Shown here: in pieces, positions 3,053 to 16,600 of the stretch
Layout: every line of letters begins with the position of its first letter
How positions within the stretch are numbered: position 1 is the first letter of the stretch
Source of the DNA: Bolinopsis microptera
Lineage: Eukaryota; Ctenophora; Tentaculata; Lobata; Bolinopsidae
Assembly: GCF_026151205.1 (NCBI RefSeq)
Contig: NC_087074.1
Span: 19,049,240 to 19,073,739 of the forward strand
Direction: 5' to 3'
DNA: 24,500 nucleotides
Program-made: the position numbers and the translations under genes
Notes under the pieces: generated by a model
Databases searched by the model: none
What the model was told of the DNA's origin: nothing
The model's input: the letters and a program-made list of their open reading frames with translations, nothing else

Positions 3053-3529
3053 TTAATCGGCTTTCGTATCTTCCTTAACGTCAATAACCTTCTCTTCTCC
3101 CATTGCTTTCAGAATAGTAACAATAATCATTTTTCCCTCATCCGTCATAGTCTTTAGTCTTTCTCCGAGATCTCCTTCTGGACAACGGATGTCTTCAACA
3201 AGTTCGCCGGTCTCTTCGTCGAAAAGAGACAGAAAACCAGATTCGTCCATGTATGAAAGGGGGTATTCTTTTCGGATGACGTAAGGAGCATCGACATTAG
3301 CGTGACCAGGTGATACAGCCTCGATCTTCTTTCCTGTGAAGATGTCAATACCGGTGAATGCGCACTTAGCCGAACCGTGCTTTCCGGGTTTCGAAGTGTT
3401 GATGTTTTCGATCTTGCATGCTCGACCTTTCATCAGCATGTATCCACCTTTCTTGATAGAAGATGCTTGAGTTGGGTAAAATTTGGATGCACCAGAATCA
3501 GCCTCGTTAACTTCGAACTCGTCAGACAT
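3053..3529 (-). CDS. EIF5A: Eukaryotic translation initiation factor 5A (eIF5A), intronless
   Basis: A predicted cytosolic protein of 158 residues that binds the ribosome E site and helps form difficult peptide bonds. It carries the hypusine loop SKPGKHGSAK. Starting at MSDEFEV puts the modified lysine at residue 50, the same number as in human eIF5A, and this is why I chose that start over an in-frame ATG 17 codons upstream. The signature GIDIFTGKK and the C-terminal OB-fold region (about 85-150) follow. Oddities: the usual TGKHGHAK is PGKHGSAK here, the sequence is more divergent than most animal eIF5A, and there is no intron. A retrocopy is possible, but the frame is intact. An acceptor-like ttctag lies about 18 nt before the ATG. 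The gene follows ASCC3 on the same strand, 605 bp after its stop codon. Confidence 0.93.
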   Translation of the reverse strand: MSDEFEVNEADSGASKFYPTQASSIKKGGYMLMKGRACKIENINTSKPGKHGSAKCAFTGIDIFTGKKIEAVSPGHANVDAPYVIRKEYPLSYMDESGFLSLFDEETGELVEDIRCPEGDLGERLKTMTDEGKMIIVTILKAMGEEKVIDVKEDTKAD

Positions 3530-3650
3530 GATGGGTTGTGTGGCTACTAGAAGTGTTTTGGTTATTAGTGTACTGATCAATAGTGTGATATAAGGACAGA
3601 TATTGAGGATTTCGTTATGGTTGATTTTTCATTCTGATGAGCCACAAGTT

Positions 3651-4134: not shown

Positions 4135-4688
4135 TTACGACCAAGCCTCAACAGTCCCATCCCAACCCTCGTCATCTGAATACTCATCTTGTTCGTCCCG
4201 AGTAGATCGCTCACTGTTTTCTTGTTGAGGATTTTCTGATTTCCAAGCGGTTTCCCTCCTCCGAGATAACCCAGGTGGTGGCGGTGGGAGTCCCGGAGGA
4301 AGATCCTGAGAGCTGCTGAAACCAGGTGGGACGCTTTTCGAGGAGTCATCTTCGAAACCAGGTGGTCCTGGAGCTGTTTTCATGAACGAATTTACTGGAC
4401 CTGGGATCATAATGGAGTGTCATAAATAAGTGTTTGATTTGTCTATGTATAAAATTCATTTCAAACATTTGGAAATTCGGGCTGGAGAGAGGGTGAAAAT
4501 GGGTCATGATCCCCCCCCCCCCCCCCCCATGGCAGCTACTAAACCTGTAGTAACGAAGGAGGGTGTGGAGTTATAGTCATCAGGCATCTTGTCATAGTAT
4601 TCCTCCTCCTCCTCATCTAACATATCTGCGTCCATCTGATACACTATCTCCGACTCCAGCACCTCTAAATAGACCGGATATTGTTGAT
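4135..4688 (-). other. ASCC3: ASCC3 C-terminal extension with four PPG[F/L] motifs and acidic tail (exons 26-27)
   Basis: Exon 26 begins with the conserved [10 protein letters not shown] strand that closes the last Sec63 domain, then continues into an acidic run ([15 protein letters not shown]). Exon 27 adds PPGF at about residues 2235-2238 and 2247-2250, and PPGL at 2257-2260 and 2264-2267, the last within a run of five prolines. A polar, acidic end follows, closing with EAWS. Human ASCC3 stops about 30-40 residues after the equivalent strand, so most of this tail is extra. The donor ACTACAG/gtttag and acceptor cccag/GTCCAG join in phase. Confidence 0.82.
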
Positions 4689-7600
4689 CTGAAGTTGCAT
4701 CACAATGAGGTAAAAGTGAAGATCACTGACGGGTCTATAGCTCAATTACTTGAGAATTGATATAATAGAGGAAAACAAGATGCGTACGTGGCACGGAAGG
4801 CAAGATAAGATAAGATAAGATAAAATAAGATAAGATAAGAGTGGTTACCTAGTCCAAGATAGGTTTGTGAGATGACGTAGAAAGTGTAGATGTGACTGCC
4901 CGGTGTTTCAGGGGTGTAGAAAGAGAGGGGGACTGACAAGGTGTTGCCTCTAAAGGGTCCGCATCTCTTCATAGCTATCAGCTCTCCTGAATATTCAGAT
5001 AGTCATTGAACTATTCGAGATAAGGCAGGATAAGATAAGAGTGGTTTATCTGATAAAGTCTTGTTTTAAGAAACCGGATAACTGGTTTAACTGAGCCAAA
5101 TTTCAGTCGGTAATTTAAATTTTAATTAAAAAGGGCACAAACCTGACTCTATTTCTCCCATGAGTACCCACCAAGTCTCATCGACAGGTTTGTTAAACCT
5201 CGGAGCGTGGGCCTTCCTGCCGGACTTGCCGGATTTGTTCTGAGAGTATTTGCCGGATCTTGGCAGGTTCAGTTTAACCTCAATACTGTACTCCTTGTCT
5301 GCGTGGACAGGGACCCATTTCGCACCTGTAAGTTTTTTGCCAGTTATTTTTAGCGAACTGGTGGATAACACATGTTTTTTTTTCTTCGTGGACCTAGAGT
5401 TTGGAGAACTAAAATAAAATCGTAAAATTGTATATACCTTACGAGACATATTTATATATGGTACGAAATTTGGGGATTTTTGGAAAAAATCCCCATATTT
5501 TCGTACTACCAAAATTGTGGCCGCCATTTCAAAATCCCACACATTAATTTTTATGTAATTAGCTTAAATAGGGCTAATTTGAGGTGGATTTGTCAAATAA
5601 GTTGTTTTACGTGTTTTGTGAGACAAGGATACGCATTTCTCAGGTAAATAGAAAGTTACTTAGTATAAAAATTACTGAATAGAAAATACTGGTTTTTCAG
5701 TGTTACGTGAAAAACGTCTCGCATATAATTTTATATAGACTTCTATAACAACGACTAGTTTCACACTAGAAAAACATTAAGTACAAAATAGAATAAGGAA
5801 GACATGCAATTTTCACCCTTATGGAATAACTTGAACAGCTAAAAATTGTTGTTAAACAAATGGATCCTGTCGAGGATTCAAAACCACGCCGATCGCCGAT
5901 ACCCTCTGGAGGGTTAGAAGTCAAACTTAATCTCACATTCAAGAGTAGGGGAGACTTAATTGACAAGCTCAAACTCCTGTTGAGGGAGGCATACACCTGG
6001 GACTACACCGGTGAGCAGACTCAAGGTGAAAGAGACGACGATGAAGACGATTTAAACGAAGAGAATGATTTTTAATTAATTTAGTTTTTCACGATTTAAA
6101 AAAATTCCATCAAAAACTGATTTTGATTTCTCTGAAATAATTTAGCGTGAAAATGCGACAATTTAATTTGGGGTACGAAATTTGGGGATTTCTGAAAAAA
6201 ATCCCCATATTTTCGTTCCCCCATAATTCCGATCCCCAGAATTATGATCATCCACATAAATATGTCTTGTAAGGTATGTAACGTATGTGAAATATGGTTT
6301 TTTAAATTGCTAAATACATTAGATAAGCAGTTTAAAAATGCAGCTTTACCTCCAGGGGCTTCTTTTGGTATGAAGTTCTTGTCTAGAATCTTAGAGCCGG
6401 TAATACTGTGGGTAACACGAAGTAATGGCATGTGAACCATCGCCTGATGAGTTGGACATATTGTTAAGTTTGTCACATATTTGTCCCATAAGTAGGAAAA
6501 ATGAGAGTCAGAAATTAAAATTAAAAACACTTAAATAAAAGCAGCTTGATTATACCTTGTGAATCTGGTTCAATTCCCGCTCATTGAAGTCCGACTCCAG
6601 GTTTTTACGGAGGAGATCCTGTCTATTGGAGTAAGCTAACAGGATCTCAGGGAAGGAAACAGATCCTGATAACGACCTGAAGAGTTGCTGCTAAGACGGA
6701 GCTAGAAGATGTCACATTCGTTCAGAGGAAATTAGATATGTAAACCAAAAACAAAAATTCTCGGGTAAAATAACAGCGAAGCAGCTACTTGGGGCTACTT
6801 AAATACTTGTTCAACTTAATCATCTAAATTCCAAACCAACAGATCATATTTAACATTCTTTGAACGGAAGAATCACATCTGATAAATCTGACGAAGAATG
6901 AAACTAACTGTAGCTGATAAAAGAGATGCAGCTGATGGGGTTCCACGTGGGGTAATTGTAAAAGTGGGTCGTCTTTCATCCAGCACCCTTGAATTACCAT
7001 TTTGACAATGTGCATTATGCTCAAAGATGTCTTCAACCAACCGCTATCTGCTGCTACGTCCAACATTGCCTGTTATTAAGGTGACATTATGCAAAAACAG
7101 AAAGCGGAAAAGATAAGTCCAAGAAAGCATGTAATGTTACACTGGCAAATAATTGGAGAATGATTGTTTTGAAAGCTACTTGAAAAAGACATTACCTGCA
7201 GAATCCTGATTGCTTGGTCATGAACACTCTTAAGATCGGTGATATAATCCGTCATGGGCATGGCAGTACGGGTGAAGTGAGCCTGCAACAGCAGATGTAC
7301 TTTAGTGTGGGGACTGTCATACGAGAAACTGGGCACTCTGATGGGAAGAGAGGTGGCCATTTCCTCGTTAATCTTATCTTCATTGTGTCGGACAGGCATC
7401 TCATCGTACTCAGTCACATCACACAACAGTTGAAGGGTCTCATTCACACTGGTAGCTGGGTTCAGGGTGTCCGCAAACATTTTCACAGTTTTGTGACTGA
7501 GATAGTAGTAGGAGGCGATGTATCCTAAGATTTGAGGCAGGAGAGTTGATCCGTCCACATCCACCGCTACACAGTAGGCCTGTTCTAGTTCGTTGATCTT

Positions 7601-10600
7601 ACCGGACACAATACTTGAGAGGAAGGTGTTGATATTCGCGTCCTCCAGGTCCTCTAGATGGTAATAAGCTGGGTTTTTCAGGAGCCGTCTAAAGAAATAG
7701 GTCCACGTTAGGTAATCCATTGCGTCTTGTTTTGATTTGACAGTTCCAGCTACGATCTCCGCATTGAAATGCTCCGTTAACACGCCCAGAAGGTTCGACT
7801 CGACCGGGAATGGTTCGTACAGGAACTTCTTGTAGAAGTGCTTCTTGATATCATGGACGTAGATGCAAGCAATACCCTGATCATCGAACTGGGGTCGACC
7901 AGCCCGTCCCATCATCTGTAAAACATCTGTAATGGGGAAGTCTACGTATCGGTTAGATTTACCATCGTAAAACTCTGTTCCCTTGATGATAACAAGATGA
8001 GCCGGCAGGTTGACACCCCAAGCTAAGGTTGCAGTGGCAACAAGAATCTGTATCTTCCTCTCAGTGAACAGATGCTCCACTATTCTCCTGTCTTTCTCAT
8101 GTAGACCTGCGTGATGTAAACCTATTCCGAACTGGAGCGTGTGTTTAAGATTTGAGTCTGCCACACCCTCTATAAGAGCCTGGAGTTCAATGTCAGATAT
8201 GTCGTGTATCCACTGTTTGGGATCCTGTGCAGCAGCATGAGAGATCAAGTCGTACGCTGTTAGTCGGGTCTGACGACGGGACGCCACGAAGATAAGAACG
8301 GGTTTTTCGGGACTGTGTTGCTTGATGTCGTTGTAGGCAGGTTTGTTCATAGTAGCCATGCGAGGACAGTAGTGTTGACCCGGGAACCCTGTTATGTGAA
8401 CCTCCAGAGGTACAGGGCGAACTGAGGGTTTGAAGTTGAACATGCCCACATTACTGATATTCAGCCAACTTCCCACATCGCCAGCGTTAGCTAGCGCAGT
8501 GCTGAGCCCCACAACTCTGACTTGTTGTTCGGTGTGCGAGGAGATGAAGTTGGTTCTGCTAACGATTACCTCCAACACTGGTCCTCTGTCGTTACCCAGC
8601 AAGTGGATCTCGTCTATCACGATAAGGCGGACTTTCTGGACGTACTTTCGGTTCTGCCAGGATCTGGATATACCGTCCCACTTTTCAGGGGTGGTGACGA
8701 TGACGTCAGCCGCCACAACCGCTTTCATATCGGGCACCACATCCCCAGTTAACTCAACCAGCTTCTTACCTAGATTCTTACCAATCTTCACACTCCAATC
8801 CTTCATCCTCTCTTTAACCAGCGCTTTGAGGGGGGCAATGTACACACACTTATCACCAGGGAAGTTGATGAAGACCCTGAACATGGCCAGCTCCGCTGCT
8901 ACAGTTTTACCAGATCCGGTCGGGGCTCCCACCAGGATATTGTGATCTGTGTGGAACAAAGAGTGGAATATCTGAGTTTGAACTGGGTTGAAATGACTGA
9001 AACTGAAGTAGTCCTTGTACTCTGGGTAAGGGATGATGGAGGTGGGGATGGGTTGCAAGTCAAGGAGTTGCGTGTGAGGGAGGTGGTCTTGAGGGAGGAT
9101 CACTCCTTTTACGGAGATACACTCCATTCCTTCAGCTCCGATCCAGTTGTCTGATATCATCCTCACGATGTAAGACATGTTGTCCTTGTCAATGAGCGGG
9201 ATGGAGAAGTTGAGTTTCTGAGGCGAGTTCTCCACTACGTGTTTCTTCTGGAGGGAGAAGTATTCGCTGTGGTACATGTGGTCGTTGTTAGTGTCCTCGA
9301 CCCAAACCCACCAGGGTTCAGACATCTTACCGTGCCACTTGTCATTCCAGTGGAACTGAGGCGTGATCGTCAACTCAATCTTTAGAACAGTCGCGGTGAC
9401 TGGCTGCACGACAGCATCTAATGCAACAGCAGGGAAATGGTTGACACACGCTTTGATCTTGTCACCCATTGCCACGTGCTGCAACATGTGGCCGATCTCC
9501 CGAGCTGGCATCTCCTTGAGCTTGTGCATGTCAAGGCTGAGACGTTCTATCCTGTCAAGAACGTGGGACGGGAGAATGTTGAACTGTCGGAGAGGTGTGT
9601 CGCCTTCCCAAATCCGGTGGTTCAGCATCTTGCTCAGATTGAGAAGTTTGGAGGCTACGGAGGGGTATCCGTTGTGTACTGCTATATCAAACATTGCCCT
9701 GATAATCCTCTTTCCGTTCTGAAATAAAATGAAATTTTATCACTTGGTTAGTTATACTTATTAACTTGTTAAAGATTCAAAACATGGTAGACATTTAAAG
9801 AAATATAGTTCCATAAATAATCCATGTTACTATACTAGTCTAACTAGCCTATGTTACCTGAGCAACGTAAAGAGAGTCAGAGAGAAGAGAATAACTCTCG
9901 ATGTGGAGCTGGGATATGTAAGCTTGGAGCAAGATGTTGACTTTACCGTAAACATTCTCCGTGCCCCCTTTAACCTCGAACCTTTGTGAGTGGTGAAGCT
10001 CACCCAACTCAACACTCTCCTCTTCTTGTACCTGTAAAGTGAGTACGTGTAAAGTACGTGTAAAGTACGTGTAAAGTACGTGAGATGCTGTGTTTTACAG
10101 GAGTTGTGTTTTACTGTGAGCGAATAGAGTTGTAGCAACGGGTAAGAGTTGAAATAGACTGATAAACAGACGTAAAAATAGACAATATAGATGGATTTCT
10201 GCAAAATAGATGAAATGGATACATAATCAACACAACAATGAAAATATCCAAACTCTTTTCGAACTGTATCTAATCTAATAAAAACAAGAACTTCGCCGAG
10301 GTTATACCACGTAAGTTCAATTTCCCTACAATGTATTAATCGAACCTTCAATTGAGCAAACTCGTCAGCCTGACTGATACATCCCAAAATCTCAGCTTCA
10401 AGTAGGTTTGGTTTGAAAGTAGAGTTGAAATGCTCAATGGTCGGGTGTTTGATGTAGAAGTGACTTGCTGTCCTTCCCAAATCCGTAGCTGCCAGCAGTT
10501 CGGTTTGGGGGTTGAATCTGATCATTCGGCACTTGTCCAGCACCAGTGCAGATTTCTTTATCAGGTCGGTCAAGTACTGAGGTTGGGGATTACGTCACAA

Positions 10601-13600: not shown

Positions 13601-16600
13601 GCCCGATTCGAATGTTCTAACAGAATTCAATCTTATACGCTCGTGGAAAAAATATTCGGGCAACAATAGTAGTGACATGACGCGCTCCGTTTACAAGAAT
13701 CCAATTTGGCGGTTGCGCGCGCCGTATGAAAAGCCACCGTACCTTCTTAATACCTTTAAAAGCAATTCTTCCTACATCATCCAACTCCGATATGTCCACA
13801 AGCTTATCTGTCCACTCAGGTGGCACATGTTTGGTGGCAGGAAATGTATACTCCTCGTAGCCAGGCTTTGAGTCGTTCACAACATCAACAGGAAGGGTAA
13901 TCTTAGCGCCAAGGATGTACGCAGCTGTTTGTTTTACGGTAACGCGGGTGTCGAATACATAGGGTAGTTCAGGATGTTCGGACAGTCGAGGCTGTAAGGC
14001 GGGCATCATGTTTGCCGTCATCAGTGCATATTCTCTGAAATGTACAGTTCTAGAATATTCTCATTTATAACTGAATTCAGTTAGCGCGTTTGCATAGTTA
14101 CATAAAAAAGCGTACGTGCTAAGCTGTTAATAACAAGCATCAATCTTGGGATTTGTTCTTCTTTTAGTTATTACCGCTGTTCGCGAAGCAGTTCCGGATC
14201 AAATGCTCGCTGTTGGGCGATTGCTTCTTTCTTCATTTTCTTCTCCTCCTTACGAACCTGCTTCATCCAAATCTTCTCACGTTCCGTCAAAATGTTTACC
14301 TGGACAAGGTTCATTAAGTTCATTAAATTTGACAAAACTACATGATAATTTCACCCCTAACAATAAATCAATGTTTTGCTAGCAAACGAACAACTGACAG
14401 AACATAGGTAACGTTACAAATGAGTCCAGTGGTTGCTGACTGCTCATACAGATATGCGAACCATAAATCACATACGCAAGGAAATTATCAGAACTTAAAT
14501 GTCGGAGTTCCTTTGTCGATGGGAGCGAATATATGGGAGCGAATATATGGAAACTCGTATGTGGCTTCATAAGATATCTATATCTATAGATAATGTGAAT
14601 ATTATTTAACATTGATTTGATTGCATAATGCATATATTAGTATATTACATTATTACAGTTACACAGGAATTTTCTACACAGCATTTAATTGAATTAGGCG
14701 TCAAGGTTTCCAGGCGACAATCACGTAATTTCTGGGTGTAAAAAATGTCATGATGTTTTGAGTAATGTTTATCAGTAACTTTATACCCGGAGATAAGTTA
14801 ACATGACAGAAGTGCGAGTGTAGGTAATTAAGTAATTAGTGTTACTCATTAATTTTACATTATCCCAGTTTAGGGGGAAGTCTATAATGTTGATGTAAGT
14901 TCTACGGAATACATCTGATATCACTTTTGATTTGATTGACTGACGGGAGACTACTTGAACTAGTATAGAGTATTAACTATAGTTAAACGATATAGTTACA
15001 TTCCAGTCATCACTACATTGGGTGATTCTGTACAGATATGAGATTATCATTATTAGAATTCGCTTTCGCTCTCCCCTATCTCAATTACCAGGAGCATATT
15101 GACCGACAAACTTATATTATTACCATATATGCATATGTATAAAGCAGCTATTAAGAATGTTCCTGACATAATTCCACACAATTCCGTAGAATCTGAGCAG
15201 TGAGCAGAGAATTAATAAATACTAGGCCGATTAGATTTGTACCAGAGTTGCTGTCAAATCAAGTAGTTTAAATTGATAAACAGTGAATATAATGTTTAAG
15301 TATATATATAGTTATATTTTAACTGGGAACGAGAATGAACAGGGCAGTTTAGGAGGCAGTCTTGGCACAATTCAATAAGCTCGACAGAGGTCTGTAGAAT
15401 TCTACCAAGACGTATAACGTTGAAATTCCACTCTAACCTAAGCCTTAGAGTGGAATTGCCAACCAATTCTGATCTACATACCCACGTAGTTGTGCCGGGC
15501 TTCCTGGATAGTGCCGAGATCTTAATGTTAAAGAGAGCCGGAGGGGAGGGGAGGGAGTGCCGAGATCTTAATGTTAAAGAGAGCCGGAGGGGAGGGGAGG
15601 GAGTGCCGAGATCTTTATGTTAAAGAGAGCCGGAGGAGGGGAGGGAGTGCCGAGATCTTAATGTTAAAGAGAGCCGGAGGGGAGGGGAGGGGAGGGAGTT
15701 GGTGTGGAGAAGAGTTCAGGTGGTCACGTGACATTACTGCCATTTCCGATAATCAGTGTTTCTGTGTTTAACAATTCTGATTATCACGTGTAATGTTTGC
15801 TTGTATTTGTGATTGTCGTGGTCACATGTCAGGGGATAATTGGCACAGATGTTTTAAAGTACTAAAGCGCTAATTATGGTAATTAAGCTGACTATTTAGC
15901 TGATCGAGGCCTGGTTACTCAGCAGTTCTCCTAAAATTACCTGTTTTGATAAAGCTGGTCCACGATCTGTTTTGAAATGAGGTATTTTGGGTGCGTTCTC
16001 TGCTTCACCAGAGTAAATATCAAAGTTGGGCTCGTCAGTCAATAAATCAAATCCTGATGGTTCCTTGATAACTCTTCTGTGAGCTAGAATCTCTGCTATT
16101 AGGTCAAATGCTTCAAATCCCAACAGTCCAAACATCTGAAAATTAAAAAAATGTTATTATTGATGTAGTAAAGTAGGATTAGGGTCAATTTATTAGGGTC
16201 AAGGGTTAAGTTAGTTTTTAGTACAGTTTATATTATAGTAAAACGTAAACAAATGTGTTTCACCTCCCCACCAGTATCCACATCTATAAGATAGTTACAT
16301 AACAACACAATTTTCATATTTCTCAGTTAGATGTGGATAGTTCACGAAAGAAAAAACATTATTTTCAAACCCACCATGTCCTGAAGCTGTTCATTAGAGT
16401 TCTGTGAACTGATGTGGTTATAAAGAGCAGATATTAACTCCTCTTGAGATAAGGCAGGAGGGTCCGGCTTCTTGTATAACTCACTACACGTTATCTGTGA
16501 ACAGGGGGTGATACAGATAAATGTCTAGATTGAATGTCTACCTTACTCGGGAATATTATGACTGGGATAAAGTGGTGGGTTTTGGAAAATTCCGCCATAT

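Follow-up and report, generated by a model that had tools for sequence, protein, structure and literature searches.

A PPG-hydrophobic motif array at the C terminus of a ctenophore ASCC3: a candidate docking site for GIGYF

In human cells, ribosome splitting by ASCC3 and the initiation block by GIGYF2-4EHP are described as separate arms, and the locus analyzed here raises the question of whether a ctenophore has joined them, since the last coding exon of its ASCC3 gene encodes an array of PPG-hydrophobic motifs. If the helicase does carry its own docking sites, evolution would have wired both arms together, and the locus would offer an example, simple and testable, of a pathway rewired by a short linear motif array. 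For a faulty message, rescue and shut-off might then be physically linked.

The C-terminal exons of ASCC3 and their motif array

The window, i.e., the whole stretch of 24,500 nt that was analyzed (G000:C3:19049240-19073739; genome searched, 264.65 Mb in 232 contigs), holds ASCC3 on its minus strand, with the following parts given in window coordinates:

7076-9736, minus strand: ASCC3 open frame with the helicase cassette (Pfam domains Sec63, DEAD, Helicase_C and winged helix), holding the large exon
5325-5143 and about 4983-4849 (span 4849-5325), minus strand: two exons before exon 26, conserved with human ASCC3
4545-4688, minus strand: exon 26, 144 nt, frame-neutral, encoding the end of the conserved C-terminal domain and an acidic stretch
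4401-4544, minus strand: intron 26, 144 nt, GT-AG
4135-4400, minus strand: exon 27, the last coding exon including the stop, 266 nt, encoding the PPG tail and then an acidic end

The large helicase exon scored 1567.8 bits against human ASCC3 (chain 8alz_B, the best match in the PDB) and 1188 bits against the best SNRNP200 chain; judged by sequence, its helicase and Sec63 domains are nearer to ASCC3 than to the paralogue SNRNP200. Pattern searches for ASCC3 relatives gave no match in viral contigs and 19 matches in prokaryote genomes, none of which was a relative. A glutamate-receptor ligand-binding domain encoded in this genome has the same residue as ML032222a iGluR (the ML prefix denoting Mnemiopsis leidyi) at 88 of 115 aligned positions, and we regard the animal as a lobate ctenophore.

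Joining exon 26 (4688-4545) to exon 27 (4400-4135) preserves the reading frame, with the junction ACA G|GT CCA. When the joined C terminus was used as a 243-residue phmmer query, residues 3-132 aligned with human 8alz_B (E 1.3e-27), the human side of the alignment stopping at residue 1798. The human chain has 1806 residues and therefore ends 8 residues later, while 111 ctenophore residues follow the last aligned position (132 of 243) without a counterpart in that chain. The initial annotation knew of no such tail in human ASCC3, and this PDB chain bears that out. In order, the extra residues comprise the acidic stretch of exon 26, the PPG motifs of exon 27, a basic and polar linker, and the acidic end. 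The features of the tail are as follows:

4354-4365, minus strand: PPGF, motif 1 (motif scan)
4318-4329, minus strand: PPGF, motif 2 (motif scan)
4288-4299, minus strand: PPGL, motif 3 (motif scan)
4267-4278, minus strand: PPGL, motif 4, after a five-proline run (motif scan)
4135-4200, minus strand: acidic, tryptophan-containing C-terminal end, including the stop

From first to last, the four motifs span 33 residues, and all four read PPG[FILMV] with a following residue other than Trp. The number, spacing and frame claimed at the outset (PPGF, PPGF, PPGL and PPGL in about 33 residues, the last after five prolines, then an acidic end) were all confirmed on recomputation. The array is real, well placed and on an unexpected carrier. 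As a separate observation, the acidic end (4135-4200, minus strand), with its two tryptophans, resembles a distinct, putative binding motif. We rejected an ALG-2-type PxPGF ligand: that consensus needs a proline two positions before PG, and the tail lacks it.

To assess how far composition alone produces such motifs, we used shuffled sequences. Shuffling the 88-residue tail 200,000 times gave one motif in 4,281 cases, two in 35 and more in none; with the 36-residue core, also shuffled 200,000 times, three motifs arose in 4 cases and four in none. At the nucleotide level, exon 27 was dinucleotide-shuffled 20,000 times and scored by the best of three frames, which gave one motif in 431 cases and two in 2. 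The six frames of the window contain five PPG[FILMV] occurrences, four of them in the ASCC3 tail. Across the window and 11 selected loci (141,154 six-frame codons), 15 were found, with 4 in the ASCC3 tail, 10 in ZNF598 and 1 elsewhere in the window, a count that serves as a contrast and not as an unbiased rate, since the ZNF598 locus was picked as a known motif user; it omits the duplicate loci L004-L008 and L013, also L014, and the later L019 and L020. In L019 and L020, none was present in any of the three minus-strand frames.

These counts bear on the reading that the tail is translated and has no specific partner, being a fast-evolving, proline-rich segment with an acidic end whose motifs arose by drift. 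Its terminal position, low complexity and lack of a human counterpart fit such an origin, but the motif number lies far above that of composition-matched shuffles, and PPG-hydrophobic motifs are rare in the background of the scanned DNA; we regard drift as unlikely. The tail DNA has a single match in the genome, its own locus. As a protein query it found, besides itself, one weak match in its own genome (E 0.015, 33% identity, two stops), lying on the opposite strand next to the second GIGYF copy; its two PPG are followed by E and D, and we took this match as chance.

Several further features of the window were noted. A run of 18 G at about 4511-4528, just inside intron 26, is a place where an assembly or splicing error is possible. 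The gene for eIF5A (3053-3628, minus strand), another factor for stalled ribosomes, follows closely downstream of ASCC3 on its strand. An open frame of 81 residues, acidic at its end (5830-6075, plus strand), runs antisense within an ASCC3 intron and has no Pfam match; it has the string EVKLNL in common with ASCC3, probably by chance. There is a 46-bp minisatellite of four copies with 95% matches at 15510-15691, and a receptor-like open frame at 289-1431 on the plus strand (7tm_1, 17.5 bits, below the cut-off of 30.5).

Reading frame and splicing of exon 27

Only one of the six frames of exon 27 is free of stops, and it is the PPG frame that results from the 4545/4400 GT-AG join. A codon score was derived from 2,042 codons in four genes or exons of the same genome. 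In full it gave 40.1 for the PPG frame versus 29.6 and 15.9 for the two alternative frames; its synonymous-only part gave -0.59 versus 19.44 and 11.75. The donor of intron 26 reads ACAG|GTTTAG, which deviates from the usual splice consensus; a neighboring intron uses TCAG|GTTTGT. At the acceptor (4401), the pyrimidine fraction is 0.60, and six other acceptors that were located by homology range from 0.35 to 0.60, one of them (4984) having been placed two bases off its AG. Five AGs lie within intron 26, of which only the one at 4401 yields the tail and the other four truncate the protein. Skipping of exon 26 would preserve the PPG frame, and retention of intron 26 would end the protein early.

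We weighed the reading that exon 27 is absent from ASCC3 mRNA, or seldom present, and that the protein stops within exon 26 or shortly beyond it. At a rival AG ending at 4482 the pyrimidine fraction is 0.85 versus 0.60, and its use would give a truncated end with a stop, retention of the intron would likewise give a short end and a stop, and the synonymous codon score opposes the PPG frame. The 4482 acceptor, however, implies an intron of 63 nt, which is short, and exon 27 offers 87 codons open in the exact splice phase when the other five frames all contain stops. On balance, omission of exon 27 appears quite improbable to us, and we proceed with a tail that is predicted to be part of the protein.

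GYF domains, 4EHP and ZNF598 in the same genome

A search of the genome with the GYF profile PF02213 found three places, two on contig C4 and one on C3. The two C4 places are exon copies of a GIGYF-like gene, separated by 311 kb. The first copy has all three GYF exons in readable form (MWFYLDPK, GNTQGPFDSVKMFGWFKEGYFGMDLKIRRSADTQFTKL and EIMIQQCGRIPF), and the resulting domain shares 26 of 61 residues with human GIGYF2. PMC12249416 lists Y538, D540, Q546, F549, W557, Y562, F563, L567 and F592 as groove, contact or core residues, and all nine, among them the Asp characteristic of the Smy2 type, are kept in the C4 domain assembled from the three exons. A CD2BP2-type reader was rejected, the best GYF matches in the PDB being GIGYF2 and GIGYF1, far above CD2BP2. 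The initial annotation had named a genome without a GIGYF GYF domain as an outcome that would tell against docking; what this genome holds is a GIGYF-type GYF domain with its ligand groove intact. A search of the GIGYF locus for a 4EHP-binding motif gave only scattered, chance-like matches. The GIGYF copies (L019, L020 and L002, at G000:C4 around 15992000 and 15680000) carry long minisatellites that repeat intron-exon boundaries, namely those at which the GYF exon and the next exon begin.

The remaining GYF place encodes a BTB-GYF protein of 464 residues in a single frame, with both domains above their cut-offs (BTB, 24.1 bits versus 20.5; GYF, 51.9 versus 25.7):

G000:C3:12431046-12431180, minus strand: BTB-GYF locus (L001)

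Eight of the nine listed residues are kept in its GYF domain (L567 is changed to I), which is identical to the C4 GIGYF domain at 41 of 61 positions. This GYF domain is without an intron, as expected of a retrocopy fusion. The protein is possibly a ubiquitin-ligase adaptor for PPG-hydrophobic proteins.

The presence of a second well-preserved GYF domain in a protein of this kind suits the reading that the tail is real and mainly serves another reader, either BTB-GYF or, at the five-proline run, a profilin, SH3 or EVH1 protein, all of which read proline motifs. Four PPG-hydrophobic motifs nevertheless suit the Smy2/GIGYF preference, as described in PMC12249416, better than generic proline ligands do, and a main reader other than GIGYF strikes us as decidedly unlikely. 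GIGYF remains the partner that we favor.

Matches to IF4E were found on C11 and C3. A 34-residue piece of the C3 gene aligned over its full length with eIF4E type 2 (4EHP) at 38.9 bits; the best eIF4E reached 24.1. A WD-40 chain and two designed chains of WD repeats scored higher for this piece, but as sums of many short matches, and were set aside. On C6, a ZNF598 gene shows, on one strand and in this order, a RING domain (53.8 bits, cut-off 27), a long proline-rich motif exon and a PAH domain (27.1 bits, cut-off 25), which presumably belong to one transcript. Its motif exon holds ten PPG-hydrophobic motifs in 108 residues (four PPGI, five PPGM and one PPGF). Two of four proteins scanned, one from a ZNF598 exon and one a zinc-finger piece, had no match to Pfam. 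A palmitoyl-protein thioesterase gene (196.3 bits; L009/L010, G000:C6 about 7198500-7199400) lies on the opposite strand, apparently nested in ZNF598.

At genome scale, the PAH_ZNF598 profile found no match, yet a direct scan of the exon did, so that genome-scale misses show little. The same applies to the profiles for TRIP4 zf-C2HC5 and MBF1/EDF1 and to the GW182 M-domain model, none of which matched in the genome, which is not proof of absence. A genome search for COX1, intended for typing the mitochondrial code, likewise gave no match.

A proposed docking mechanism and its relation to known systems

We propose, tentatively and with somewhat less than even confidence, that the exon 27 tail is a multivalent docking site for the animal's own GIGYF GYF domain, coupling ribosome splitting to an initiation block. 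Exon 27 would give ctenophore ASCC3 a C-terminal tail that, to judge by its composition, is probably disordered. Once ASCC3 arrives at collided ribosomes, the four motifs would capture GIGYF and its partner 4EHP via the GYF domain, the four copies on one helicase lending avidity. Cap-dependent initiation would then be blocked on the same mRNA while the lead ribosome is split, so that splitting helicase and initiation block are delivered together to one message. Each link in this chain, namely splicing of exon 27, disorder of the tail, GIGYF binding and translational repression, is a prediction.

The idea that ASCC3 is a GIGYF docking carrier, first raised from the window alone, has gained support from the GIGYF GYF domain, the 4EHP-like gene, the ten-motif ZNF598 array and the rarity of the motif in the DNA scanned; the motifs and these partners are present, and it is binding and coupling that we continue to infer. 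With more reserve still, we can picture ctenophore ASCC3 itself as a GIGYF-4EHP platform in a lineage where ZNF598 and ASCC3 each bear an array, one complex perhaps clearing the collision and silencing the message where microRNA silencing is apparently missing. Because two proteins of the pathway each carry an array, the idea can be tested with peptides and a single small domain.

Work on other animals bears on this proposal from both sides. GIGYF2 is recruited through PPG-hydrophobic motifs by ZNF598, TTP and TNRC6 (PMC12249416 and PMC12171015), and in TNRC6C a single PPGL suffices for GYF-dependent pull-down with GIGYF2 (PMC5467174). In human cells, collided ribosomes are reported to recruit GIGYF2 as well as ASCC3 even when ZNF598 is absent (PMC7486125), and a direct ASCC3 link is accordingly unneeded there; GIGYF2 already has ways of reaching collisions, EDF1 among them (PMC7486125 and PMC7381030), and the expression profiles of GIGYF2 and ASCC3 are modestly anti-correlated in the human collision work (PMC7486125). 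The ctenophore Mnemiopsis is described as having no recognizable microRNAs, Drosha or Pasha (PMC3563456), which makes the microRNA route to GIGYF doubtful in ctenophores. The portions of PMC12249416, PMC7486125 and PMC7381030 that we consulted report no motif link between ASCC3 and GIGYF, and a literature search on disordered C termini of invertebrate ASCC3 found no paper.

One of the closest known systems is the recruitment of GIGYF2-4EHP by ZNF598, which involves the same motif class, the same ribosome-collision pathway and a cognate GYF domain that is present here, as is an array in the animal's own ZNF598. The carrier in our case, however, is the splitting helicase and not the ubiquitin ligase, and the motif types differ, the ASCC3 tail having PPGF and PPGL and the ZNF598 of the same animal mainly PPGM and PPGI. 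TNRC6 resembles the tail in its C-terminal PPGL within a disordered effector region that docks the GIGYF2 GYF domain, which was shown there and is predicted here, but TNRC6 acts in microRNA silencing. With human ASCC3 and yeast Slh1, the ctenophore protein has the helicase cassettes and Sec63 domains in common, whereas the human PDB chain has no tail. A further parallel is exon 5 of murid GRB10, where a lineage-specific exon supplies a PPG-hydrophobic motif and with it a link to GIGYF2; as described in PMC12171015, this case shows that motif gains via lineage-specific exons do occur and can stay confined to a narrow lineage. The GRB10 exon, however, is an internal alternative exon with one motif in a signaling adaptor, while that of ASCC3 is a terminal exon with four motifs in the collision pathway. 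Provided that exon 27 is used and conserved, the ASCC3 tail array would be a variant of the known mode of GIGYF recruitment.
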